DNA of 57,669 bases from an uncultured Erysipelotrichaceae bacterium (lineage in GTDB: Bacteria; Bacillota_I; Bacilli_A; RF39; UBA660). Shown one piece after another: positions 6,518 to 20,848 of this stretch; within the stretch, counting starts at the first letter, position 1; every line of letters begins with the position of its first letter. The notes under the pieces are model-generated. The model saw only the letters and a list, made by a program, of their open reading frames with translations, was not told the origin of the DNA and searched no databases. The DNA lies in NCBI GenBank assembly GCA_902795975.1, contig CADBNE010000008.1, forward strand, positions 1 through 57,669. The letters are read 5' to 3'. Position numbers and translations under genes: made by a program.

Positions 6518-6548
6518 GGTAAAATGGTATATAGAGTAGGTGGATATA

Positions 6549-9500
6549 ATGATAATAGTTCCAAGAGATGAAAAAGAAAGTGCATTAGATAAATTATATA
6601 GAGTACGTGATAAATTTAAAGAAGAATATAAAGATATATCTGATATTGAATTAATGATAGATGTATTAGAACATGATGATGAATCATTATTAGATAAAAT
6701 GACATTAGAAGGTTGTGCATATTTCTTTAAATTTGTAAACTATGAATATTATTATGATATATTTGTAGGATTATTATTTGAAATTTTTGCATCAGATAAA
6801 GATGAAATTAAAAAAACATATATTTCTACAAATTTAATTCCATCTAAATTATTAAATGAAGAAGATTTTTTAGAATTAGTTTTAAAACAAAGTGATGAAA
6901 TTTTAGATAATTTTCGTTATTATAAATTTGATAGTACTTCTTTAGATGTACTATGTAAAATATTAAACAGAATGAGTAAAATAGATTGTGATTTTTTTAG
7001 AATACAATGTGATTCTAAAAAAGCTTTTATATCACAAAATATAGATTATTCTAAAAAAATAGTAACTAGTGAAGATTTTATAGAAAAATCTAAATATATT
7101 GAATCAATATATTTAAAGAAGATGTTTAATAATTGCAAGACAGAATTTTTAAATTATTCTATAGAAAATAAGATATTACTTGTTGATAAAATAGATAATA
7201 AAAAATTTCAAAAAGAATTATTTGATTGTTTTGATTTAAAAAAATATCCAAATAAACTTACAGTTAATTTAGTATCATTATTAGATAAAAAAACATTAAT
7301 AAATAAAATAATAGAGGGAGAATATAATTATATAAGTTATTTAAATTCTAATGAACAATTAGAATTATTAAATGATGAAAGAATAAGCCCTGAGTATATT
7401 GTTAAATATTTAAATGATGAAGTAATTATTGCTAATTTAAGTATTAATCCTACAATAGTTCCACCTAGCATATATATAAGAGTTTATAATAATGGAAGAA
7501 ATATAAAAGTAGAAGAATATTTAAAAGAATTATTAATAAATGCTAAATATATAGAAGATGATGGAATAATATTATCTCTTATAGATAGTTCATTATTAAA
7601 AACCTTTTCAGATGAAGAAATAGATAATTTAGTTAAAAAAATAAGAAAGATTGATTCTCCTTTTGTATATTTTAATATTGAAAAAGTTTCTAATGAGAGA
7701 TTATATAATGATATATTAGAATTAATTTTTAATACAGTTGATTTTAGTAGTTATAGTCAAAAAATTAAATTATCATTATCTGATTTATATAAATTTCCAC
7801 AAGAATATCGTGAGAAAATATTAGATAATTTAGATAAAAGTTATTTATTATCTTGTAGTTTAGTAGATAATGAAGAATTTAAGATGTTATGTGAATTATT
7901 AAATTGGAACAATAAATATTTTGAAGATGAAACTTTTGAATCACATATTAATATTCCTAAAATAGAAAACTCTAATTTTGATAAGAAATATTTAATATTA
8001 AAAGATTATTTAACAGAAAATCAAATAAGTAATATATTTTTCTCAAATAAAACAATATTAGAAAATTCAAAGGTAATTAAATCAGAATTTATTTCATATG
8101 TAAATAAAGAAAAAGATAATATTAAAAATGTTTCATTAGTAAGATTTTTACCAGAAAAAATGCATGATAATATTCTTTTGAATATGCCTATTGATTTATT
8201 TGTTGAAACAATACCATGTGATTATGATAAATATTTTAATGTAAATATAGTAGATGAAAGATATGATGAAATTGTTAATTATGTTAACATACATAATGTA
8301 ATGGTTTATACAATTGAATTTATTTATAATTTATTTAGTGATAATAATAAAAATAAATTTATAAGTAGTATACCATTTGATTTTGCATTTTACATTTATA
8401 AAAATGCTATTTACGATAAAATAGATAAAAAGAGGGTATTTAGAAAATTATTTTCAGCTAAAGATAAATTAATTGATTTCGATGAAAATGTATTTTGTAG
8501 TTTTGATTCAGATGAATATGAATTATTTACTGAAATAGCATCGTTAGGAAATATTGTTAAAGCATGTTTAATAACTGATAATAAATATTTAAAAGATGAT
8601 TTTTCTAGTAAAATTAAAGATAATTACGAATTATTATTAGATCCACATGTTTATATCAATATAGATAATTTAGTTACAATTTTAGATGAAGAAACAGTAA
8701 TGTATATTAAGGATAATGCTTTAAAAAATTTAAATAATATTGCATTTTATTATAATTTAAAAAATAAAGAAGAATTAACTATAGGAGGTATGTTATCTAT
8801 TTTATATGGTATTACTTCATCATATATAACAGAAGATAATACAACATATTTATATAGTATGTATTCAAAAGATAAATATTTCTTTGCTAATTTAGATTTT
8901 AGATTATTTAGAAAAGATATATATAATTTAGGAAATAAGTTTGTATCTAATTTAGTAAGATATCCTGAAATAGTGAATGAGGTATATAATATATTTAATT
9001 CAGATAAATGCGATGAATTAAAGAGTATTATATTATATTTAGATGATTTTGATTTATCATTTGAAGTATATGCTAGTATATTGGATATATTAATTTATTA
9101 TTGTAATACTAATAAAGACAATAATAATTGCGATAATCCTAAAGCATTATTAGACTATATAATATCATCATCTTTTTCAACAGATAAATTATTGTCTAAA
9201 TTAAAATTTGATTCTAAATATTTAGAAAGTAAAGAAAAAATAATAGACCATTGGATACATAAAAATACTGATTTAAATGAATTAAAAAATCTTGTATATG
9301 AAAAAATATATGGTATAGATAGTGACGCTGTTAAAAATGTTATTAAAAAATTTAAAACAGATATAGAATTAGTTCAAACATATTTAGAAAATAGTTTTTG
9401 TAATATATATATAAGTATTCAAGAAGCAATTGATGACTTAGAGAGTGTAGAAGAATTACATAAATTCTGTAATGAAGTAAAAACAAGATATACAGTTATG

Positions 9501-10550
9501 GACTATTATATATTTGAAGATAGTATGAAAAAAGCTTATGGTAAATTAATAGAAAAACAAAATGAAGAAAAGAATCCTGTAGTTGAGCAAAAAGTTATTA
9601 CAATTGATAATAATACAATAGAGGTTACAGAGTATATTGATAATTTTGGAATATTTACTCATAGTACATGTTCATATGGAAGTATGAAATTAATAGATAA
9701 TGATTATTATATTTCATGGAATAACAATCCATGTACTAATAATAATGGTATTTGTACAGCATATATTACTAATTCAAATATGTCTTCAGCACCTATTTCT
9801 AAAAATGGAGTATTATTTGGATTTACAAAAATTAAAGGTAATCAAATTGGACTTTATGCACCATATGACTTAAATTCAGTAAACACATATTTTGGACTAT
9901 TAAATTCTAATAATGAACATTATGTATCATTAAATAATTTACCAAGTTATACAAGACATACACATAATGAAGTGGTTTTATACAGAAAAAATAATGATAT
10001 AAATTTACAACCTGATTGTGTAATTATATTTGATGATATGTCTGAAAGTATTAAAATGAATTCATTAAAAGCTGTTGAAGATTTTAAACAACATGGTATA
10101 GATTTAAAAATAATCTATATAGATAGAACTAGAGTATTATCAAATGAAGTTGTTGCTTTAGCACATGATATAAAAGAATATTTATATACATATGATTTAG
10201 AATTATTAGGTAATATTTTAAATAGATATAATACAAATATGTGTAGTTTAGTATATATGAATAATATAGATTGTGATGAATTATTTATTACTAATTCTAT
10301 GAAGCAATTATTAAATGATACAGTAGACCATATAATGGAGATAGATGATGCTAACTTAAAAAGTAGTGAAATAATTGGCTTTATAGATATAATAAATCAT
10401 GAACAAAGTAAATATGATTTACTTAAATCAAATTATAATGGAATAAGTAATAAATTTGATTTATATACTCTTGATTTAAAAAATAAAATATCTGAATTAG
10501 AAAAAATGCTATTAAGTAGTTATAAAAAAAGAATTGGTTTATTAAAATAA
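6549..10550 (+). CDS. Giant protein with helical-repeat body and conserved C-terminal domain (paralogue 1)
   Basis: I do not recognise a named family. ATG 6549 is chosen because AGGTGG (6539-6544) sits ahead of it; a GTG at 6540 lacks one. The product is 1333 aa, with no signal peptide or membrane segment, so it is probably cytoplasmic. Residues 1 to about 950 are Leu/Ile/Asp/Lys-rich and read as consecutive short helices, as in HEAT-like solenoids (inference). From about residue 1015 to 1220 it aligns by eye with the 1386-aa protein at 13923: a DNFGIFTHSTCSYG block (His1038), a YITNS block, RHTHNEVVLYR (His1137, His1139, Glu1141), LQPDCVIIFDDM and IIYIDRTRV. The shared His/Asn/Glu/Arg residues look catalytic or ligand-binding, but the function is unknown. 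Confidence 0.85.
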   Translation: MIIVPRDEKESALDKLYRVRDKFKEEYKDISDIELMIDVLEHDDESLLDKMTLEGCAYFFKFVNYEYYYDIFVGLLFEIFASDKDEIKKTYISTNLIPSKLLNEEDFLELVLKQSDEILDNFRYYKFDSTSLDVLCKILNRMSKIDCDFFRIQCDSKKAFISQNIDYSKKIVTSEDFIEKSKYIESIYLKKMFNNCKTEFLNYSIENKILLVDKIDNKKFQKELFDCFDLKKYPNKLTVNLVSLLDKKTLINKIIEGEYNYISYLNSNEQLELLNDERISPEYIVKYLNDEVIIANLSINPTIVPPSIYIRVYNNGRNIKVEEYLKELLINAKYIEDDGIILSLIDSSLLKTFSDEEIDNLVKKIRKIDSPFVYFNIEKVSNERLYNDILELIFNTVDFSSYSQKIKLSLSDLYKFPQEYREKILDNLDKSYLLSCSLVDNEEFKMLCELLNWNNKYFEDETFESHINIPKIENSNFDKKYLILKDYLTENQISNIFFSNKTILENSKVIKSEFISYVNKEKDNIKNVSLVRFLPEKMHDNILLNMPIDLFVETIPCDYDKYFNVNIVDERYDEIVNYVNIHNVMVYTIEFIYNLFSDNNKNKFISSIPFDFAFYIYKNAIYDKIDKKRVFRKLFSAKDKLIDFDENVFCSFDSDEYELFTEIASLGNIVKACLITDNKYLKDDFSSKIKDNYELLLDPHVYINIDNLVTILDEETVMYIKDNALKNLNNIAFYYNLKNKEELTIGGMLSILYGITSSYITEDNTTYLYSMYSKDKYFFANLDFRLFRKDIYNLGNKFVSNLVRYPEIVNEVYNIFNSDKCDELKSIILYLDDFDLSFEVYASILDILIYYCNTNKDNNNCDNPKALLDYIISSSFSTDKLLSKLKFDSKYLESKEKIIDHWIHKNTDLNELKNLVYEKIYGIDSDAVKNVIKKFKTDIELVQTYLENSFCNIYISIQEAIDDLESVEELHKFCNEVKTRYTVMDYYIFEDSMKKAYGKLIEKQNEEKNPVVEQKVITIDNNTIEVTEYIDNFGIFTHSTCSYGSMKLIDNDYYISWNNNPCTNNNGICTAYITNSNMSSAPISKNGVLFGFTKIKGNQIGLYAPYDLNSVNTYFGLLNSNNEHYVSLNNLPSYTRHTHNEVVLYRKNNDINLQPDCVIIFDDMSESIKMNSLKAVEDFKQHGIDLKIIYIDRTRVLSNEVVALAHDIKEYLYTYDLELLGNILNRYNTNMCSLVYMNNIDCDELFITNSMKQLLNDTVDHIMEIDDANLKSSEIIGFIDIINHEQSKYDLLKSNYNGISNKFDLYTLDLKNKISELEKMLLSSYKKRIGLLK

Positions 10551-10562
10551 ATCAATTCTTTT
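10529..10562 (+). terminator. Terminator overlapping the 3' end of giant gene 1
   Basis: AAGAATTGGTTTATT pairs with AATAAATCAATTCTT (one G-T wobble), followed by a short T-rich tail. The stem's left arm lies inside the coding sequence. Confidence 0.65.
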
Positions 10563-10615
10563 ATTTACTATAAAATAATATTATGATAGTATAATTATTT
10601 AAAGTGAGTGATTTT

Positions 10616-11752
10616 ATGATATATAATTGGACATATGATGATATTAAAAATGATTTAAAAAAAATAAAAAAGATTATAGATGATGAAAAAGATAGTAATA
10701 AAAAAAATTATTATAAATATATATTAAATAGAATGGAAGAAGAATATTCTTGTATATTTGTGAGTAATCATTTGCCTAAATTATCATCTCAATCATATAT
10801 GATAGATTTAAATAGTGAGTATTTAATGAATAATAGATATTATGAATTTATAAATATGTTCAACGATTTATTAAATAAAAATGATAAATTATTTAATTTG
10901 TGTTGTGATAAATATTTAAGTTTAAAACATATTGATTCTTACATGATACCAGATAAAAAATGTGTTGAAATGGTAAGTGATGTGTTTACAAATTTAGATG
11001 AAAATTTTTCAAATATCTATATGAATTTTTATAAGAATATCAATACTTCAATTAAGTTTTCTAAAAAATTAGATAATATTGATGAAGATGTTTCAGATGG
11101 ATTTAATATATTTATTAGTATACTCAATAAAAATTATATATTAGTTAGAGATGAATTAGGAATATCTAAACCAATTAATTTAGCACATGAATGTGGCCAT
11201 GTTTTAGCTATTAATTATTGTCCAGAAAATTATTATAATACTATAAATACATTTTTTGATGAAATACCATCTTTATTTTTTGAACTAATTTTTGAATATG
11301 AATATTCTTATAAATATGATTCATTAAGTACATCTTTATTTAATATAGAAAAAATTTATTTTTTAGAAGATTCAACAGATAAAATATTATTACATGATTG
11401 TATAGTAGAAGAATGGAAAAATAATAATTATGAAGTTAATAATAATTTATTAAATATACTTAATAATAAGTATAAAATAAATAGAAATGATTTTTTAAAT
11501 ATAATTAAATCATCAATATGTACTAATGGAAAATATATAATTGGTTATGTTACAGCACTTAATTTATTTCATATATATAAACAAGATAAGAATGAGGCAT
11601 TTAAATTACTTAGAACATTACTTAAATTACAATATAAAGATTCATATTTATTAATTAATCAAATAATTAATTATGATTATATTAATGAAGAAGTTTACAC
11701 ATTACTAAAAACTGCATCAGAAGATGTTCAAAAAAAGTTAACTTTAAAATAA
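10616..11752 (+). CDS. M3-like zinc metallopeptidase (divergent)
   Basis: A 378-aa cytoplasmic protein with a gluzincin zinc site: AHECGH (His191, Glu192, His195), then DEIPSLFFEL with Glu216 as the likely third ligand, 21 residues downstream. That spacing and the E-I-P-S-x-F-x-E pattern resemble oligoendopeptidase F/M3 peptidases. The protein is much shorter than typical M3 enzymes (550-600 aa), so the N-terminal lid is reduced. Start ATG 10616 follows GAGTGATTTT; a GTG at 10604 is less likely. A TATAAT box lies at 10590-10595. It sits between the two giant paralogues, but no sequence link to them is visible. Confidence 0.72.
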   Translation: MIYNWTYDDIKNDLKKIKKIIDDEKDSNKKNYYKYILNRMEEEYSCIFVSNHLPKLSSQSYMIDLNSEYLMNNRYYEFINMFNDLLNKNDKLFNLCCDKYLSLKHIDSYMIPDKKCVEMVSDVFTNLDENFSNIYMNFYKNINTSIKFSKKLDNIDEDVSDGFNIFISILNKNYILVRDELGISKPINLAHECGHVLAINYCPENYYNTINTFFDEIPSLFFELIFEYEYSYKYDSLSTSLFNIEKIYFLEDSTDKILLHDCIVEEWKNNNYEVNNNLLNILNNKYKINRNDFLNIIKSSICTNGKYIIGYVTALNLFHIYKQDKNEAFKLLRTLLKLQYKDSYLLINQIINYDYINEEVYTLLKTASEDVQKKLTLK

Positions 11753-11794
11753 AAAAATGTTAAAATTATGATAGAAATAATTAAAGGAGATACT

Positions 11795-12448
11795 ATGAAA
11801 AATTTGGATATTAATGGTGTTAATGAACAATATAAGATATATATTAAAGAAGCATTAGAGGATATTAAAACAAAAGGTAGAAGGTATAGACAAATTCCTA
11901 ATATAATAACTTCTTCTAGGCTTATTGCTGCTCCATTTTTTATAATTCCAGCAGCATTATGTAAAAATTTACTTCTTTTAGTTATCTTTGTAACATTCTT
12001 TTCTTTAACAGATGCATTTGATGGATTTATAGCGCGTAAATATAAATTAGTTAGTGAATTAGGTAAAGATTTGGATGCTATATGTGATAAAGTATTTGCA
12101 CTATCTCTTTTAATTGCTGCCTCTATATTTGAACCTATATTAGTTATTAATATAGTAGCAGAAGTCATTATAGCAATTATAAATATTAGACAAAAATTAC
12201 ATGGATATACACCTAAATCATTAATGATAGGTAAAATAAAAACATGGGTATTATATCCTTTATTAGGTTTAGCATTTTTAGGAACAATAGTTAATTCTAA
12301 AGAAATATTTCTTATCTTTTTAGCTGCATCTTTTACAATGCAAGTGTTTACTATAGCTTCATATTTAATAAAATATGAAGGAAAAAAAGAAGACAAATCT
12401 GAATTGTCTGAATTGATGACTAAAGAAGCTACACATATAATTAAGTAA
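11795..12448 (+). CDS. CDP-alcohol phosphatidyltransferase (PgsA/Cls-like)
   Basis: Integral membrane enzyme that transfers a phosphatidyl group from CDP-diacylglycerol to an alcohol. The family signature D-G-x2-A-R-x8-G-x3-D-x3-D is complete in DGFIARKYKLVSELGKDLD plus the next four residues. Several hydrophobic segments follow. The 217 aa are in the family range (about 180-220). The N-terminal 45 residues are a soluble, charged extension. ATG 11795 is chosen for its AAAGGAG at 11784-11790. Phosphatidylglycerophosphate synthase is the commonest member in such genomes, but the substrate cannot be fixed from sequence. Confidence 0.85.
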   Translation: MKNLDINGVNEQYKIYIKEALEDIKTKGRRYRQIPNIITSSRLIAAPFFIIPAALCKNLLLLVIFVTFFSLTDAFDGFIARKYKLVSELGKDLDAICDKVFALSLLIAASIFEPILVINIVAEVIIAIINIRQKLHGYTPKSLMIGKIKTWVLYPLLGLAFLGTIVNSKEIFLIFLAASFTMQVFTIASYLIKYEGKKEDKSELSELMTKEATHIIK

Positions 12449-12449
12449 T

Positions 12450-12809
12450 ATGAATCATATTGAAATGTTAAATAAATTATCTACTTCTAAGTTTAGAAAT
12501 AGTTTTCATCTTAGAAAGTATATGATTAATTATATAGATGAAAAGGGTATGAGTACAATAGTTAGTCATGCATATGATTTTATTAATAAGAATTTAAGAC
12601 CTAAAGATATACCAAATGATGGTAAACAAACACCTATGAAAGGACATCCTGTTTTTATCGCACAACATGCATGTGCTTGTTGTTGTAGAGGTTGCTTGTA
12701 TAAATGGCATAAGATACCTAAAGGAAGAGAATTAACAGATAATGAAGTAAATTATATAGTTAGTTTATTAATGGAATGGATAAAAAGAGAATATAAAAAT
12801 GTAAAGTAG
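12450..12809 (+). CDS. DUF4186 family protein
   Basis: A 119-aa soluble protein with the DUF4186 signature: GHPVFIAQHACACCCRGCLY followed by KWHKIPKGREL. The four-cysteine cluster and the adjacent His and Trp suggest a metal-binding site (inference). The function of the family is not known to me. It begins two bases after the preceding stop, so it is co-transcribed with the phosphatidyltransferase, and ends at a strong terminator. Confidence 0.85.
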   Translation: MNHIEMLNKLSTSKFRNSFHLRKYMINYIDEKGMSTIVSHAYDFINKNLRPKDIPNDGKQTPMKGHPVFIAQHACACCCRGCLYKWHKIPKGRELTDNEVNYIVSLLMEWIKREYKNVK

Positions 12810-12829
12810 AATATATTTCTACTTTTTTT
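12803..12829 (+). terminator. Terminator after the DUF4186 gene
   Basis: AAAGTAGA pairs with TCTACTTT across a short AT loop, followed by T's to 12829. Confidence 0.85.
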
Positions 12830-12879
12830 ATTGAAGCATATATATCTATATGTTATTATAAAAAAAAGGGGAGATATAG

Positions 12880-13479
12880 ATGAAAAAATATTTATTCGCA
12901 CTTATTATTAGTTTTACATTATTCATAACAGGATGTGGAGTAAATAAAACTAAAGAAATAGAAGGAATTAAATTAGATAAGAAATATACTACATATGGTT
13001 TTATTATAAACCCAACAAGCACTGACAAAGAGGGAAGTAGAGTTATATTAAGATATGATAAGGCAGGTAATTTAAAATATCTTGAATACAACTATGTATA
13101 TGATATTGATCTTGAAGAAGAACATTCTCAATATGATTTAAAAAATAAATCTGACAAAGAACTAAAAAAACTTTTAGAAACAGAAGGAAAGTGCTCTAGA
13201 ATAAAAAAATTATCGTTTAAAGATTATAATATAGTATGTGATGTAAATAAAAGAAAAGCATACATTGGTATATCTATTACTGATAAAACTATTAGTGATG
13301 GTTTATTTGATACTAGAGATGGAAGTATTTTTGAAAGTTCTATTACAAGAAATTTGTATGAGAATTCTACAACAGAAGAAAAAGTTAAAGAATTATTAAA
13401 TGGTTCTGAAATAAGAGAAACGTTAAAGCGTAAGAATGCTATACTTATTATGGCTGATAAAAAAGTGAATTTAAATTAA
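12880..13479 (+). CDS. Predicted lipoprotein
   Basis: A 199-aa exported protein. MKKYLFALIISFTLFITGCG is a textbook lipoprotein signal peptide with lipobox ITGC (lipidated Cys at residue 20), so it should be anchored on the outer face of the membrane. The mature part contains two further cysteines (about 107 and 120) that could form a disulfide, and charged Lys/Asp/Glu-rich stretches. No named domain is recognised. Ribosome site AGGGGAG lies just before ATG 12880. It is monocistronic, bounded by terminators. Confidence 0.8.
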   Translation: MKKYLFALIISFTLFITGCGVNKTKEIEGIKLDKKYTTYGFIINPTSTDKEGSRVILRYDKAGNLKYLEYNYVYDIDLEEEHSQYDLKNKSDKELKKLLETEGKCSRIKKLSFKDYNIVCDVNKRKAYIGISITDKTISDGLFDTRDGSIFESSITRNLYENSTTEEKVKELLNGSEIRETLKRKNAILIMADKKVNLN

Positions 13480-13504
13480 AAGGTAATAATACATTACCTT
13501 TTTT
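13478..13504 (+). terminator. Terminator after the lipoprotein gene
   Basis: AAAAGGTAAT pairs with ATTACCTTTT around a short loop, followed by T's. Confidence 0.85.
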
Positions 13505-13549
13505 ATTATGTAAAAATGTGGTATAGTTATTATAGAATGGAGAAAATAT

Positions 13550-13915
13550 ATGACATTAGAAGATAAATTAAATATAAGTAACAAAAATATTGATGAATTA
13601 TTAGAAGGTACAGTTGAAGCTAAATTAATTTGTATATTTAATGATAAAATCTTATTAGATATTAATAATAAATTATTACCTTGTTTTTGCTTAAGAAAGG
13701 GTAGTATAAATAAAGATAATATATTTAATTATTCAAAAGATCTACTTAATATAGATATTGAAGATATAAAAATAGTTATTAATGATGATTTTAATGTAAG
13801 ATATTATTTATTAAAAATTAATCTAGAAGATATAGTAAATATAAATAAATTTTTTGAATTTTTTGAAATAGATGAAATGGGTAATGATATAGAAAGAAAT
13901 ATAATAAGTAAGTAG
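13550..13915 (+). CDS. Hypothetical protein upstream of giant gene 2
   Basis: A 121-aa soluble, acidic protein rich in Ile, Asn and Asp, with no recognised domain. A beta-rich centre (EAKLICIFNDKILLDINNKLLPCF) and C-terminal helices (FFEFFEIDEMGNDI) are all that can be read. It starts at ATG 13550 after GGAGAAA. Only 7 bases separate it from the 1386-aa gene, so the two are probably one transcript and may act together; giant gene 1 has no such partner. Confidence 0.6.
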   Translation: MTLEDKLNISNKNIDELLEGTVEAKLICIFNDKILLDINNKLLPCFCLRKGSINKDNIFNYSKDLLNIDIEDIKIVINDDFNVRYYLLKINLEDIVNINKFFEFFEIDEMGNDIERNIISK

Positions 13916-13922
13916 GTGTATT

Positions 13923-16900
13923 ATGCATTTAAGTGAACAAATAATAGAAGAAACAATAGAATATATAAAATCATTTAGTGCATCAAATGATGAGAATGAA
14001 AGAATTATAAATATTTTATCTAGTAGGGATGAAGATAAAATAAAAGATTTAATGTTTAATAATACTTTGGAGATGTTTACAACTCCAATAATAAAAGAAT
14101 TATATAAAAATGAAGAATTAGTAACAGATATGCTTAGATACCTTATATTTAAAAATAAACCTATAAGGGAACATTATATTGGTCAGTTTAGTAAATGGAT
14201 TGATTTAAAAGATTTATTTAATCAACCAATTGTAATAGATTTTTTGAACGATGAAAGTAATTTTAAAAGCTTTTTATACTCTGATATAATTTTAAAAAAT
14301 ATAAATGATATTGATAGAAATCGTTTGATTGATAACTATATGTCAAAAAAAGAAATAACAGGTCTTTCTGATATAGCTTATATTGCAGATAGTTGTTTTT
14401 TGCATGTTTATAATAATTTACCAGATAGTACTAAAGATAAAATAAAAGAAAGTTTTGTTCATAGATATTATAGTAAGTTTAGTGAATATGCTGAAGAAAT
14501 AATGTGGAATGAAGTTAAAGATGATATTAAAAATATAGCTGTAACAGAGAAAATAAGTTTTATAAAAAGTATTGGTTCTGAAAGTTTAAAAAAAGAGGTA
14601 TTTAAATATTTTGAATTTGATAAAAATTTAGATTTAGTTATTAATGAATACGATTTTAATATAGAAAATTATGTTTCAGAAGATGTTTTATTTGAAAAGT
14701 TTAAAAGCTTAATAGATATCGATAAATATCAACCATATTTTAGTGTTTTATCAGAAAAAAAACAGTTTGAAGGAATAAAATTATTAACAGAGAAAAAGGT
14801 TCCTTTTTATAAATTTTCATCACTTTTAAAATTAGGTACATATAAATTATTATTTGATGTAGCACCTAAAATGCTAGATACACATAAATTATATGGTTTA
14901 TATAAAGAATATGGTGATATTAAATATTTAGAAAGAATTAAAGAAATATATTTAAAAAGTACATCTTTTTATTTAGAGATATTGTGTGAAGATGATTTTG
15001 TTAATTTATTAAATGAAGAAGAAAAAAAATATATAATAGATAATCTAAAAAAAGATGAGTCTATAAAAGATATTTCTGGTGTAAAAAAATATAATAATTA
15101 TTTCTTTAAATATTATGTAAAGAATGCTATAGAAGATTTAGAAAAAAATCCAGATAAAAGAGTATTTATTACTCTTAATGAATTGTTCGAATATTATACT
15201 GAAGAAGAACAAATGATTTTGATTAGGCGTATACCATTAGCTGATATGATATCTTCTGCTATGGATAATTATGATGACTGTTTTAATAAATTGATGAATT
15301 TATTAGAAAAAAATGAAAATTTATTAAAAAATTTACCAAATATAACTTATGGTCAAATGTCATATTATGGTAGTGAAGAAAAAAATGCTAGATTTAATAA
15401 AATAATTAAATATATTGATGAAAAAGATTTATATAAATTGATTTCATCAGATATTATAAAAAGTAATGAATACTTAAAAAATTATTATATAGAAAACGTT
15501 TTAAATATGCCATCAATGGTAACTAGTTTTGAACTATTTGATATACTTTCTAAAGAAACAAAAGAAAAAATTGTAGAATTAATTGATATAAAATATTTAA
15601 AATATTTTACAGAAAAAGCCCTTTTGAAATTAGAAAATAATGATGAAAATAAAAATATACTTTTAAGTGCTTTATATAAAAGATTTTATGAATATATAGA
15701 ATATAATGATCTTATAAATTATTTTAGTTATTCTAAAAAAGATAAATTATTATATTTTGAATTAGACGATGAACATAAAAATTTATTTATTGAGAAAACT
15801 GCAAATATTAATTCTTTATTTGATATTGTTAGATTATCTAATTTTAAAGATGAAAATGCTATGAATAAAATATTAAAATTATATGATATTACAAATATTG
15901 ATATATATGTGAATTCTCTTACATCAACAAATAGAAAAATATCTTTTTCAGAATTAGATGATGAATTTAAAAATTATATAATTAGTAAGATGAATTTTAA
16001 TGAATTATTATATACATTTACATATTATAGAGATTCACATATATTAAATTTATTAATAGAAAAAATCCATGAAGATAATTCTTGTTTAATTGATGAAAGT
16101 GTTATAAGAAATATAGATGTACTATATTATTTGGTAGATGATAATGAAAAAGAATATATAGTTAATTCTATAAAAAATATGTTAGGAAAAAATGAGTTAT
16201 TTACATCAAAATATAAATTTAAAGTTAAAGATATGAATATGAATGATGGTATTAATTACTTAAATTTATATAAAAAAGGTTGTATAGAAAATAATCAAGA
16301 TTTATTAGAAAAATTATTAGATAGTAATCCTTTTTTATTTAAATCTATTAGAAGTATCTTTTTTAATCCTTATATAACAGAATTAAATTTTAATTTTTTA
16401 GATAAGTTAAGTAAATATAATGATTTACAAGAGGGTTTAAAAATAATTTCATTAAATGAAGATAGAATGATTTTATTTAATAGAATAGCTAAATATTTAG
16501 AAGAGAAAATAGATAATAAAATTGTATACGATATTGAGATATCAGAAATTATAGAATATTTATCAAATGAAAAAGTTTATGAAAAATTAAATTTAAAAAA
16601 TGTAGATTATTCTAATATAGCCGATATTGTAAATTATATTTTATGTGATTATATTAATTGTGTTCAATATAGATATAAGGATAAGTATGAAACAATAAAT
16701 GAGATGTGTGATTTAGGATTTGATAATTTTATAGAAAAGAAAAAGAATAAATGTGATGAATTATTTGAAAAAGCAACTGAAATAAAAGAAATGAAAAATA
16801 TTTATTTTAATAAGTTTTTTTCATTATCATTAACACAAGCTGAAGACTTTTATAAAACTTATGCTATGAATTACCAAAAAGTAAGTGAGTATGCATCAAG

Positions 16901-18083
16901 TAATTTACCATTATTATTTATAGATTTATTGACTAAGATAATTCATATAGATGATCTTATTACTTTAAAAGAAATGTATGTATCTAATGAAATATATTTT
17001 GATTTAACTGATATATATGAAATTGAAGCAATTATGAAAGATGCATATTCATTATCACTTTGTAATCAGTATCAAAATAAACAAAATGGAACACTTATTA
17101 GAAAGTCTATTAAAGATAAAGATGGTAATATAGAAGAGTACGAAATGACAGAACTATTAGATAATTTTGGATTAATAGTTCATAGTACATGTGCATATGG
17201 AGAAATGCCTCTTAAGGATAATGATTATTATGTTTCATGGAATTATAATCCTAATACAGAAAATCATGGTATATGTTGTAGCTATATTACTAATTCAAGC
17301 TATGGTACTGCAGCAGTTACAGGTAATGGTGTAATGTTAGGCTTTACAAATATTACACCAACTACAATAGCAGCATATTCACCATATGATTTATCAACTA
17401 AAAATACAGGTTTTAATATTGAATGTAGATATACCCCTTATTGTACTGTATTAGATGAAATAGATGATTATACAAGACATACACATAATGAATTTAATCT
17501 TGAACGAAGAATAAGTGATGGAAAGAATTTTTGCTTACAACCAGATTGTATAATTATATTAGAAGATATGGATGAAAGTATAAAAGCTAATAGTATAAAG
17601 GCATATAATGACTTTAAAAAGCATAATCCAAATACTAAATTAATATATATAGATAGAGTTAAGATTGCTAAAATGGAATCAGATAAATTAGATATGATGA
17701 TAAAAGAATATTTAAGTAGTAAAGATTTATCTTTATTAGCACAAATAATTAATAAATATGAATCTAACTTATGTAGTAGTGATTTTTTAGCAATAGGAGT
17801 TGAAAACTCTAAAGAACTATATGATATGAATGAAATGTTTAAAACTGATATAATAACTAAATTATTATTTGATACATTGGATGAAATAACTATTTTACAA
17901 GATAAAGAAAAATTATTAACTTTTATTAATATAATGGAAAATGAGCAATTTAAATTTGATTTAATTGATGATAAAAATCCAGATAGAAAACATACATTTA
18001 AATTATATAGTTATGAATTAAAAGAAAAAATTGATAATTCTTTAAATTTATTAAATACTAATAGTAAAGAAAATACTAAATGA
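13923..18083 (+). CDS. Giant protein with helical-repeat body and conserved C-terminal domain (paralogue 2)
   Basis: A 1386-aa paralogue of the protein at 6549-10550, with no signal peptide or membrane segment. Residues 1 to about 1000 are helix-forming, Leu/Asp/Lys/Tyr-rich repeats. The C-terminal domain (about 1060-1275) repeats the motifs of paralogue 1: DNFGLIVHSTCAYGEM (His1087), NDYYVSW, YITNSSYGTAAVTGNGV, RHTHNEFNLERR (His1186, His1188, Glu1190), LQPDCIIILEDMDES and LIYIDRVKI. The domain is far more alike between the two than the bodies, as expected if the repeats give specificity and the C-terminus the activity (inference). Its function is unknown. Confidence 0.85.
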   Translation: MHLSEQIIEETIEYIKSFSASNDENERIINILSSRDEDKIKDLMFNNTLEMFTTPIIKELYKNEELVTDMLRYLIFKNKPIREHYIGQFSKWIDLKDLFNQPIVIDFLNDESNFKSFLYSDIILKNINDIDRNRLIDNYMSKKEITGLSDIAYIADSCFLHVYNNLPDSTKDKIKESFVHRYYSKFSEYAEEIMWNEVKDDIKNIAVTEKISFIKSIGSESLKKEVFKYFEFDKNLDLVINEYDFNIENYVSEDVLFEKFKSLIDIDKYQPYFSVLSEKKQFEGIKLLTEKKVPFYKFSSLLKLGTYKLLFDVAPKMLDTHKLYGLYKEYGDIKYLERIKEIYLKSTSFYLEILCEDDFVNLLNEEEKKYIIDNLKKDESIKDISGVKKYNNYFFKYYVKNAIEDLEKNPDKRVFITLNELFEYYTEEEQMILIRRIPLADMISSAMDNYDDCFNKLMNLLEKNENLLKNLPNITYGQMSYYGSEEKNARFNKIIKYIDEKDLYKLISSDIIKSNEYLKNYYIENVLNMPSMVTSFELFDILSKETKEKIVELIDIKYLKYFTEKALLKLENNDENKNILLSALYKRFYEYIEYNDLINYFSYSKKDKLLYFELDDEHKNLFIEKTANINSLFDIVRLSNFKDENAMNKILKLYDITNIDIYVNSLTSTNRKISFSELDDEFKNYIISKMNFNELLYTFTYYRDSHILNLLIEKIHEDNSCLIDESVIRNIDVLYYLVDDNEKEYIVNSIKNMLGKNELFTSKYKFKVKDMNMNDGINYLNLYKKGCIENNQDLLEKLLDSNPFLFKSIRSIFFNPYITELNFNFLDKLSKYNDLQEGLKIISLNEDRMILFNRIAKYLEEKIDNKIVYDIEISEIIEYLSNEKVYEKLNLKNVDYSNIADIVNYILCDYINCVQYRYKDKYETINEMCDLGFDNFIEKKKNKCDELFEKATEIKEMKNIYFNKFFSLSLTQAEDFYKTYAMNYQKVSEYASSNLPLLFIDLLTKIIHIDDLITLKEMYVSNEIYFDLTDIYEIEAIMKDAYSLSLCNQYQNKQNGTLIRKSIKDKDGNIEEYEMTELLDNFGLIVHSTCAYGEMPLKDNDYYVSWNYNPNTENHGICCSYITNSSYGTAAVTGNGVMLGFTNITPTTIAAYSPYDLSTKNTGFNIECRYTPYCTVLDEIDDYTRHTHNEFNLERRISDGKNFCLQPDCIIILEDMDESIKANSIKAYNDFKKHNPNTKLIYIDRVKIAKMESDKLDMMIKEYLSSKDLSLLAQIINKYESNLCSSDFLAIGVENSKELYDMNEMFKTDIITKLLFDTLDEITILQDKEKLLTFINIMENEQFKFDLIDDKNPDRKHTFKLYSYELKEKIDNSLNLLNTNSKENTK

Positions 18084-18129: not shown

Positions 18130-18633
18130 ATGAATTATATTATAAGAACTGCTACAGAAGAAGATGCATATGAGTTATCAAAATTAAAATTAAAAATATG
18201 GAATCAGGTATATATAGATATATATCCTAAATATAAATTTGATAATTATGATATAGATAAAAATAGAGATAAATTTATAACTATTATGAATAATCCAAAT
18301 ATAAATTTATTAGTTGTAGAAGTTGATAATAAAATAATAGGATATATGTCATATGGTGAACCATATAGAAAATATAAAGATTATAAACAAGAAATAGGAT
18401 TATTATATTTAGATCAAGAATATCCAAAAATTGGATTAGGAACTAAATTATTTAATATAGCTTATGAAGCTATTATGAAAGAATATGATGAATTTTTTAT
18501 TTCTTGTAATAAATATAATTATAATGCTAGAAAATTTTATGAAAAAATGGGTGGAATATTAATACATGAAGATGACGATAATGAGGATAAATCTTTAGTT
18601 CAAGTTAAATATTTATATGGAAAGAAGGAATAA
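18130..18633 (+). CDS. GNAT family N-acetyltransferase
   Basis: A 167-aa protein with the GNAT fold. N-terminal IIRTATEEDAYELSKLKLKIW is the first strand and helix. The acetyl-CoA loop is degenerate (LDQEYPKIGLGTKLFNIAYE, with G-L-G-T replacing the usual R/Q-x-x-G-x-G/A core). NARKFYEKMGG is the C-terminal acceptor-side motif. The substrate is unknown; the layout resembles ribosomal-protein or small-molecule acetylases. The next gene starts two bases after its stop. Confidence 0.85.
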   Translation: MNYIIRTATEEDAYELSKLKLKIWNQVYIDIYPKYKFDNYDIDKNRDKFITIMNNPNINLLVVEVDNKIIGYMSYGEPYRKYKDYKQEIGLLYLDQEYPKIGLGTKLFNIAYEAIMKEYDEFFISCNKYNYNARKFYEKMGGILIHEDDDNEDKSLVQVKYLYGKKE

Positions 18634-18634
18634 T

Positions 18635-19306
18635 ATGTATGATGAATCATATGAAAGAAAAGTAGGTAGAGGTAGTAATTTTAATTATGATTTATTTCCA
18701 TTAATAAATAATTTTTCATTTTGTGATTTAGTAGATTATGCATTAGAACAAGATAAAAAAGATACAGAAGAAAAATTGGAAGACTATGGAGCATTCTTTG
18801 TTATAACAGATAAACAATATATAATTGGTTATACCGCAGGTAATGGAGCAGGAACACATAAAAGTGCATTTGCTAGAGTACAAAAAGAATTACAAGGTGG
18901 AGGAGTAATAGCTACACTTAGTGAAGCTAAAATATTAACAGAAAAATGTTTGAAAAATAATATAACAGCTAGAATATATTATGCTAAAAGCTATTTAAAT
19001 AATTTTTTAAATTATAGTGGACATATTGATATAGATTTAACAGATTCAATTATTACACCAGAAAAATTTGAATTATTTAAACAGTTATATTATAAATATA
19101 ATGATGAATTATTATATTTAAGTAGTAAAGGTAAAGGTTTTCAGGTAGAATATATATACTTAGAAAAAAATAAAGTATTAAGACATGAATCAACTAGTTT
19201 AGATAGTTTATATTTATATTTAGAACAAAATATAAATAAAGAAAATACAAATAATTCTAATGATGAAATTATTATAGGTGAAACAATAAAAAAAATAACA
19301 AAATAG
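18635..19306 (+). CDS. Hypothetical protein
   Basis: A 223-aa soluble protein. ATG 18635 (AAGGAA at 18626-18631) is preferred over an in-frame ATG at 18617 that lies inside the acetyltransferase gene. The middle has a Gly-rich segment, IIGYTAGNGAGTHKSAFARV, followed by QKELQGGGVIATLSEA, which could bind a nucleotide or phosphate (inference; no Walker motif is present). The C-terminus is Asn-rich. The protein family is not recognised. It is co-transcribed with the upstream GNAT. Confidence 0.65.
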   Translation: MYDESYERKVGRGSNFNYDLFPLINNFSFCDLVDYALEQDKKDTEEKLEDYGAFFVITDKQYIIGYTAGNGAGTHKSAFARVQKELQGGGVIATLSEAKILTEKCLKNNITARIYYAKSYLNNFLNYSGHIDIDLTDSIITPEKFELFKQLYYKYNDELLYLSSKGKGFQVEYIYLEKNKVLRHESTSLDSLYLYLEQNINKENTNNSNDEIIIGETIKKITK

Positions 19307-19357: not shown

Positions 19358-20848
19358 ATGAATAGATTAAGTAAAATTTTATTCAGTGGGGTTATAAGTT
19401 TAATGGTTTTACCTATTTCTGTTTTAGCATTACCAAAAGAAAATCTAGTAGATAATAAAGCTCCAATGAAGGAGAATATAACAAAGATTACATATAAAGG
19501 TAATACTGAACTAAATAGCAATATAGAAGAAAAAAATACAAAATATAATAGTACTACAGCTGGAGAAAATTCTATTTTAATTTCAGGTGGAACAGTATCA
19601 TTAATAAATCCACAAGTAAATAAGAGTGGAGATTCAAATGGAGATGCAGCAGATTTTTATGGAACTAACGCAGCTATTTTAGTATATAATGGCGCTAAAG
19701 CAAATATTAGTGGTGGTGAAATTAATACTAAAGGATTACATGCTAATGCAGTATTTTCATATGGAAAAGGTACTTTAAATATTGATAATGCAAATATTAA
19801 TACTAGTGAAAATTTCTCAGGTGGATTAATGGTTGCAGGAGGAGGTACTTTAACTGCAAATAATGTTACAGTAAAAACAAAAGGTAATTCATCAGCTTCA
19901 ATAAGAAGTGATAAAGGTGGAGGAGAATTACTTGTAAATGGTGGTTCATTTGAAACATCAGGAGTAGGATCACCTACTATATATTCAACAGCAAATATAG
20001 TTGTTAATAAAGCAACTCTTATATCAAAAGCATCAGAAGGAGTAGTTATTGAAGGAAAAAATTCAGTAACACTAAATAATGTAGTATTAACAGATACTAA
20101 TAATAAATTAAACGGTAATTCAGAAACATATAAAAATATATTTATGTATCAATCAATGTCTGGAGATGCAACAAGTGGTACTTCTACATTTTTAGCTAAG
20201 AATAGTACAATAACTACAAATAAAGGAGATACAATATTTGTTACAAATACAAGTGCTGTTATAGCATTAGATAATAATGTTTTAGTAAATAATGATGGTG
20301 AATTTTTAAGAATTCAAAAAGGTAAATGGGGAACTAATGGCCAAAATGGTGGTCAAGTAAAATTAAATTGTTATAGACAAAAAATAAAAGGTGATATTAT
20401 TGTTGATGATATATCTACTTTAGAAGCAATTTTTAAATCAAAAAGCTTATTTAAAGGTAGTATAGATAAAGATAATAAAGCTAAAAAAATAGATTTAACT
20501 CTTTCTAAAGATTCAATTATTGTTCTTACTGGAAATTCTTACGTAGATAGTTTAACAAATGAATTAAAAGATAATTCTAATATATATTTAAATGGATATA
20601 AACTATATGTTAATGGTAAAGAAGTATCAGGTAATACAGGTAAATATGATGAATCAGCAATTACAGAAGAAACTGATACAACAAATGAGAAAAGTAATGT
20701 AGTTAGTAATGATACAAGTGATAAAAAAAGTAATACTAATAAAAAAACAACTTCTAACAAAAGTACAGAAGTATATTGTTTATGTGGTTCTTTAGCACTT
20801 ATACTTATTGCTGCTATAGTAATTGTTTCAAAATCAAAAAAAGATTAA
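19358..20848 (+). CDS. Secreted beta-helix-like surface protein with C-terminal membrane anchor
   Basis: A 496-aa exported protein. An N-terminal signal peptide runs to about residue 24 (ISLMVLPISVLA). Residues 60-300 are made of short Gly/Asn/Thr-rich turns that keep repeating an I-x-N-A-x-I pattern (ANISGGEINTKG, TLNIDNANINTS, TLTANNVTVKTKG, ELLVNGGSFETSG), as in right-handed parallel beta-helices of adhesins and pectate lyases. A Thr/Asn/Lys-rich stalk precedes a C-terminal transmembrane helix (about 470-491) and a SKSKKD tail. There is no LPXTG, so it is probably membrane-held. An adhesin-like role is inferred. Ribosome site GGAGG precedes ATG 19358. Confidence 0.78.
   Translation: MNRLSKILFSGVISLMVLPISVLALPKENLVDNKAPMKENITKITYKGNTELNSNIEEKNTKYNSTTAGENSILISGGTVSLINPQVNKSGDSNGDAADFYGTNAAILVYNGAKANISGGEINTKGLHANAVFSYGKGTLNIDNANINTSENFSGGLMVAGGGTLTANNVTVKTKGNSSASIRSDKGGGELLVNGGSFETSGVGSPTIYSTANIVVNKATLISKASEGVVIEGKNSVTLNNVVLTDTNNKLNGNSETYKNIFMYQSMSGDATSGTSTFLAKNSTITTNKGDTIFVTNTSAVIALDNNVLVNNDGEFLRIQKGKWGTNGQNGGQVKLNCYRQKIKGDIIVDDISTLEAIFKSKSLFKGSIDKDNKAKKIDLTLSKDSIIVLTGNSYVDSLTNELKDNSNIYLNGYKLYVNGKEVSGNTGKYDESAITEETDTTNEKSNVVSNDTSDKKSNTNKKTTSNKSTEVYCLCGSLALILIAAIVIVSKSKKD

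Follow-up and report, generated by a model that had tools for sequence, protein, structure and literature searches.

Two giant paralogues with divergent bodies and a predicted ADP-ribosyltransferase-like C-terminal domain in an uncultured Erysipelotrichaceae bacterium

Two giant proteins are proposed to be NAD+-dependent ADP-ribosyltransferases of a new family

A 57,669-nucleotide stretch of DNA from an uncultured Erysipelotrichaceae bacterium (contig CADBNE010000008.1 of assembly GCA_902795975.1; hereafter the window) encodes two giant proteins, copy 1 and copy 2, with divergent bodies and a common C-terminal domain. With moderate confidence, we favor the interpretation that both are NAD+-dependent ADP-ribosyltransferases (ARTs) of a new family, acting as effectors that are aimed by a solenoid body and actively transfer ADP-ribose. 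That the C-terminal domain adopts an ART fold is, based on structure prediction, highly probable. This interpretation offers a testable function for a large unnamed family of giant genes from uncultured Bacilli and Clostridia, in which a gene of 4-10 kb represents a heavy cost to a genome of 0.9-1.7 Mb. If true, it would add to the known ARTs a family whose active site is unusual, would add to bacteria an ART-on-solenoid layout, and would raise the question of what these bacteria direct ADP-ribosylation at. In word searches of the literature, not made at the sequence level, none of the titles and abstract openings listed gave an account of this family. The two proteins and their domains are located as follows.

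6540..10550, + strand: copy 1, giant protein of 1336 amino acids (aa) when started at GTG, or 1333 aa when started at the ATG of position 6549, with a divergent helical body and a C-terminal ART-like domain
13923..18083, + strand: copy 2, giant protein of 1386 aa, with a divergent helical body and a C-terminal ART-like domain
9630..10259, + strand: ART-like domain of copy 1, approximately residues 1031-1240, with H1041, C1072, D1110, N1115, E1144 and R1149, aligned with copy 2 and the family
16935..17798, + strand: residues 1005-1292 of copy 2, modelled as an ART-like domain with preceding helices (predicted local distance difference test, pLDDT, 89.8; predicted template modelling score, pTM, 0.86)

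A sequence-only reading of the window had described two open reading frames (ORFs) of 1333 and 1386 aa with differing bodies and a common domain of about 200 residues. Both ORFs and the motif blocks quoted for both proteins were found. In global alignments the C-terminal domains are 51% identical and the bodies 25%, compared with 27% for one shuffled body. The conserved core indeed spans about 210 aa, but the alignable region is longer, about 490 aa (493 aa at the C-terminus by BLASTP, 36% identity, E = 4e-79). Pfam and NCBIfam gave no genuine match to either copy, the sole Pfam row having an E-value of 0.13. The domain described as unnamed carries no name in the searched libraries either; the fold itself is known.

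Both structure predictions were made on the domain. The model of the copy 2 domain has the fold of the ART superfamily, the best eight entries in a fold comparison all being ARTs (8/8). Foldseek returned no significant match for two domain models against the PDB (best E-values 0.23 and 0.57) or against viral models (0.40), and a profile search of PDB sequences with the domain returned nothing (best E-value 0.57). Most of the 50 rows listed for a first, weaker model fitted the C-terminal helices alone (ribosomal S15 and others) and were discounted. Scattered Pfam matches among 23 domain fragments, each confined to one to three members and the best being Spindle_Spc25 at 1.5e-4 in one member, were taken as chance.

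Conserved residues outline a putative ART active site, here compared with that of CteC

Conservation was counted over 138 aligned domains, with fewer per column owing to gaps, a set that includes near-identical proteins and, through overlapping loci, some genes twice. It was counted again on 46 representatives obtained by clustering at 60% identity. The residues of the putative active site are as follows.

17490..17492, + strand: E1190, predicted catalytic Glu of copy 2; E in 135/136 domains (44/45 clustered)
9969..9971, + strand: E1144, predicted catalytic Glu of copy 1, in the same column
17181..17183, + strand: H1087 of copy 2, end of a core strand and presumed place of the R-S-E Arg; H 119, N 7, T 2, Q 2, R 1 and A 1 of 132
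17388..17405, + strand: D1156-x4-N1161 of copy 2; D 131/135, N 122/132, spaced from H1087 as D134/N139 are from R65 in CteC

Strand 186-190 of the model begins at E1190, placing this residue where the third motif of the ART superfamily carries its catalytic Glu. Similarly constant are P1207 (132/132; 44/44 clustered), R1195 (132/135; 42/45 clustered) and T1184 (132/135), followed by C1118 (128/134; 39/45 clustered) and H1188 (126/136). Clustering leaves H1087 in 33/44, D1156 in 43/46 and N1161 in 36/43. Not every His, Asn and Arg called invariant from the two copies is so across the family, H1087 and H1188 being less constant. The accompanying suggestion of an enzyme rather than a scaffold gains support from the predicted ART fold and the Glu at the presumed catalytic place.

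CteC of Chromobacterium violaceum is a mono-ADP-ribosyltransferase of ubiquitin Thr66. Its published description states that R65, S97 and E220 are used, that activity is lost without D134, and that T66, R113 and N139 contact NAD+ (PMC10810742). D134 and N139 contact the nicotinamide ribose and phosphate, and D1156 and N1161 are equally spaced in the window copies: the intervals H1087-D1156-N1161 are 69 and 5 residues in copy 2 and likewise between the equal residues of copy 1, a match in spacing alone that was seen post hoc, with column equivalence inferred and not superposed. Across the family the first interval varies (69 in 70 rows, 67 in 31, 65 in 12 and 71 in 6), the second being 5 in 118 rows. 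The position 32 residues after H1087, that of S97 in CteC, falls at C1118-S1120. D1156 and E1190 are 34 residues apart, separated by one short helix in the model, and E1190 follows without the four-helix ubiquitin-recruiting insertion of CteC (157-194). In further contrast to CteC, with which the domain has 8% sequence identity, the family carries His at the presumed place of the essential R65 and the domain ends a helical body of more than 1000 residues.

The pattern also departs from the two classical ART types. In R-S-E (cholera-toxin-like) ARTs, to which CteC belongs, an Arg ends the first core strand, whereas the presumed equivalent column of the family holds His in 119/132 domains and Arg in 1/132. 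Compared with H-Y-E (diphtheria-like/PARP) ARTs, the family keeps the His (119/132) and the Glu but has Cys (128/134) in the presumed place of the Tyr, a placement made by our own pattern matching. By eye, the motifs resemble those of PARPs (His; G-I-Y; Y-N-E), including the N-E strand at the third motif, except that Cys replaces Tyr. No PARP was among the 12 fold-comparison matches listed. Because the domain has the predicted fold and the Glu but lacks the Arg and insertion of CteC and the Tyr of H-Y-E enzymes, we file it as a new family within the known ART superfamily.

One divergent copy (L045, G016:C3:72739-73611) has Thr in place of the catalytic Glu and has lost the His of the first motif; judged by these residues, it is likely an inactive paralogue.

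The bodies probably consist of helical repeats and diverge faster than the domain

Starting from copy 2, a 21-residue repeat motif (consensus EFFNLLSDEEKKIIISKIDNK) was built up over 55 bodies of the family, with P0001, P0002, P0049, P0051, P0052, P0055 and P0062-P0090 left out of the training. It has 141 matches in 57 bodies, whereas reversed bodies give 3 and shuffled bodies 5. These counts are not independent, as the seeds come from copy 2, training bodies were also counted and the proteins are related. In a first test, which retained only seven bodies, there were 1.1 matches per protein against 0. Gaps between successive motifs cluster at 56-67 residues (26/87), and lesser peaks lie around 118 and 178. 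Because matches far exceed those in reversed and shuffled bodies and the gaps cluster in this way, each body is probably built of helical units of about 60 residues repeated in tandem, pointing to a solenoid. The two window copies contribute the following stretches.

14400..16202, + strand: solenoid-like repeat stretch of copy 2, 7 matches to the ~60-residue helical repeat, with the seeds coming from copy 2 itself
7596..8375, + strand: repeat stretch of copy 1, 3 matches (two weak) to the ~60-residue helical repeat, against 0 in reversed and 0 in shuffled copy 1

A solenoid body, for which the sequence-only reading had proposed a test, is thus supported for copy 2 and more weakly for copy 1.

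Relative to copy 2, body and domain identities are 57% and 86% for P0002, 36% and 71% for P0005, and 26% (shuffle 27%) and 60% for P0026. Fourteen comparisons were made with copy 2, using copy 1 and 13 proteins picked by hand from the 90 homologues; in 8 of the 14, the body exceeds its shuffled counterpart (a single shuffle per comparison) by no more than 3 points of identity. Judged by these identities, the body evolves much faster than the domain.

The family is large and patchily distributed

Residues 1040-1290 of copy 2, used as a query, retrieved 90 proteins with E<=0.001. Of these, 86 have lengths of 1273-1675 aa, and a precomputed Pfam domain is present in 0/90. A profile search with the 23 domain fragments added 15 shorter proteins of 169-397 aa. 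Scanning of species genomes yielded 19 loci titled uncultured Bacilli, Clostridia, Lachnospiraceae, Mollicutes, Bacillota or plain bacterium, and some sample names suggest rabbit gut and rumen. The 17 genomes behind 17 of these loci (all but L015 and L017) hold one to four matches each, some being pieces of one broken gene; giant copies hence recur, which the sequence-only reading had named as a form of support. Giants may also recur in pairs: P0001/P0052, P0002/P0049 and P0027/P0032 have equal longest contigs listed (53864, 14426 and 33427), which suggests but does not prove a location on the same contigs. In a FastTree phylogeny of 133 domains copy 1 lies in a five-member clade (support 0.987) and copy 2 in a separate clade of 27 (0.985), suggesting that the duplication that gave rise to them is probably old. 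Among viral contigs, 24 stretches fit a pattern but none was a confirmed relative, and hence no phage link was found.

Within one family of 98 genomes, 13 contain a match; G002 and G007 supplied alignment sequences and G061 and G069 are weak. This patchy presence, in genomes of unstated completeness, argues against a core function. The ADP-ribosyl hydrolase family ADP_ribosyl_GH (PF03747) occurs in 27 of the 98 genomes (26 over cut-off), in 6/13 carriers and 21/85 others (p 0.18; without the two weak carriers 6/11 and 21/87, p 0.07).

The giants are likely solenoid-aimed effectors

In the proposed mechanism, the C-terminal ~210 residues would fold as a CteC/DarT-like ART, in line with the structure prediction and fold comparison. 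Judged by position and by the published CteC residues, His1087 would take the place of the R-S-E Arg, Asp1156 and Asn1161 would help hold NAD+, and Glu1190 would drive nicotinamide release and ADP-ribose transfer. The N-terminal helical-repeat solenoid would select a target or sense a trigger, with the enzyme kept unchanged, these being the most likely roles for the body because it diverges far faster than the enzyme. Relatives with a WXG100-like (type VII) substrate or an HD-like domain, described below, would fit an effector set against competitors, phages or host cells, and the putative users would be small-genome Bacilli and Clostridia. Judged from sequence, the earlier view of the window copies as an undescribed effector or toxin is plausible.

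We consider it unlikely that the giants are instead ART-fold NAD+ glycohydrolases, which would destroy NAD+ without tagging a target, the giant being a dormancy or killing device and its body the sensor of a trigger as in abortive-infection proteins. A large fast-evolving body joined to a constant enzyme suits a sensor, the patchy presence agrees with this role, and a published report (PMC13285283) describes an NAD(P) glycohydrolase toxin with an ART fold. The conserved D, N and E fit transfer and hydrolysis alike. However, PADLOC-DB 2.0.0 gave 0 families at E<=0.1 for copies 1 and 2, the 121-aa partner and peptidase-like proteins introduced below, and P0065, and the neighbors in the loci read look like housekeeping genes by eye from ORF starts, with no defence search of the neighbors run.

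A housekeeping or regulatory ART acting on own-cell molecules, with the solenoid as a substrate scaffold in a tankyrase-like layout and reversal by the cell's own ADP-ribosyl hydrolases, appears quite improbable. A hydropathy scan found neither signal peptide nor membrane stretch, the neighbors look like core genes by eye, and ADP_ribosyl_GH is present in 8/17 carriers, among them the three that have copy-2-type genes; Macro is present in 3/17. Against it stand the restriction to 13/98 genomes, the near-shuffle body identities in 8/14 comparisons and the non-significant link between hydrolases and carriers. An ART-like fold without an ADP-ribosyltransferase role (another NAD- or nucleotide-using reaction, a binding module or an inactive domain) is very unlikely: the R-S-E Arg and H-Y-E Tyr are both absent, Foldseek was not significant and L045 is degenerate, but Glu, Asp and Asn are conserved at presumed NAD-contacting places and the best eight fold-comparison entries are ARTs.

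Building on transfer by solenoid-aimed effectors, we tentatively suggest a broader scheme in which giant bacterial ART effectors are laid out like tankyrase, with a variable helical-repeat reader and a constant C-terminal ART whose active site is His-Cys/Ser-Glu. A solenoid followed by a C-terminal ART is the layout of tankyrase. The reader would be replaced by fast evolution so that one enzyme meets many targets, and lineage-specific add-ons would include a small partner, HD fusions possibly editing or undoing the product, and type VII-like delivery.

Copy-2-type giants are accompanied by a small partner gene

The sequence-only reading had coupled a 121-aa protein to copy 2, which is borne out by its position and by related loci.

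13550..13915, + strand: 121-aa partner protein, 7 bp upstream of copy 2; no known family

A homologue of the partner adjoins the giant gene in 4/4 copy-2-type loci read, upstream in the window and downstream in L001, L002 and L003; none was found among the remaining loci searched. A database search returned 14 proteins, the window's own included. The 121-aa gene thus looks like a real partner of copy-2-type giants and, judged by this conserved linkage, would likely encode a regulator, chaperone or immunity protein. The partner has no Pfam match at E<=1, and its homologues in L001-L003 show only chance-level similarity to DUF6268 (E-value 0.031). A degenerate Nudix domain, suspected by eye, was rejected as unproven after searches gave nothing. 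The arrangement differs from DarTG, in which a small DNA ADP-ribosyltransferase toxin (DarT) lies beside a macrodomain antitoxin, whereas the giants carry a helical body and no Pfam model, that of a macrodomain included, matches their partner.

Between the copies, Pfam confirmed the DUF4186 and CDP-alcohol transferase genes, both ordinary families. The gene at 10604-11752 encodes a 382-aa peptidase-like protein with a HECGH metallopeptidase motif; for its earlier designation as a divergent M3 peptidase, only this motif is visible, and at E<=1 neither Pfam nor NCBIfam yielded a match. Judged by eye from ORF starts, neither these three genes nor the lipoprotein gene was recognized beside copy-2-type genes in L001-L003. 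Of the neighbors whose recurrence was to be checked, the small partner gene alone recurs, and a link to the intervening genes, which are ordinary families or without a model match, was rejected.

Downstream of copy 2, the gene at 18617-19306 encodes a 229-aa protein, to which Pfam gave no match at E<=0.01, and overlaps the end of a GNAT acetyltransferase gene. The 496-aa protein at 19358-20848, also without a Pfam match at E<=0.01, has by eye a signal-like start, an Asn/Gly-rich body and a C-terminal membrane-like stretch and is possibly a surface protein.

Some relatives carry additional modules

In the P0065 group an HD-like domain follows the ART domain, with Pfam HD E-values of 0.0014, 0.051 and 0.0084 in three members and Ppx-GppA_III E-values of 0.00071 and 0.031 in two, all HD-type scores being under the gathering score. 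An H..HD..H..D pattern is visible by eye in L054.

L050:1083-12489 (minus strand) encodes a protein of 3328 aa that ends in the ART domain and, by eye, has a WXG-like N-terminus. Two WXG100-like genes lie upstream (PF06013, E-values 1.7e-5 and 0.0054, both under cut-off), as does a 242-aa gene, making L050 a candidate type VII-like toxin cassette. This likeness to type VII (WXG100/LXG) polymorphic toxins is confined to the relative, as no WXG100 or LXG match was found in the two giants or in 13 further ORFs that were scanned out of the 65 in the window. The search for EssB and EssC-N in the genome of L050 was negative, and the core type VII genes tested were over cut-off in 0/17 carrier genomes. 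WXG100 matches occur in 10/17 carrier genomes (8 over cut-off) and show no association with carriers in the 98-genome family (4/13 vs 25/85, p 1).

At L015:5312-8387, an ART gene is followed by two tandem copies of a unit made up of its C-terminal half and an 81-aa ORF, with a period of 1094 bp and ~1.4 kb at 83-100% identity. The copies may resemble orphan toxin tips or immunity cassettes, an assembly artefact also being possible. The 2672-aa protein at L051:2338-10356 has a weak ART-domain match and a C-terminal stretch like a kinase catalytic loop by eye, in which Pfam finds no kinase. P0063 (2274 aa) combines the ART domain with a long LXG-like N-terminal part; its 'YHITS...AILDSG' stretch, for which Pfam and NCBIfam gave nothing convincing, recalls by eye a second ART-like (DarT-like) module.

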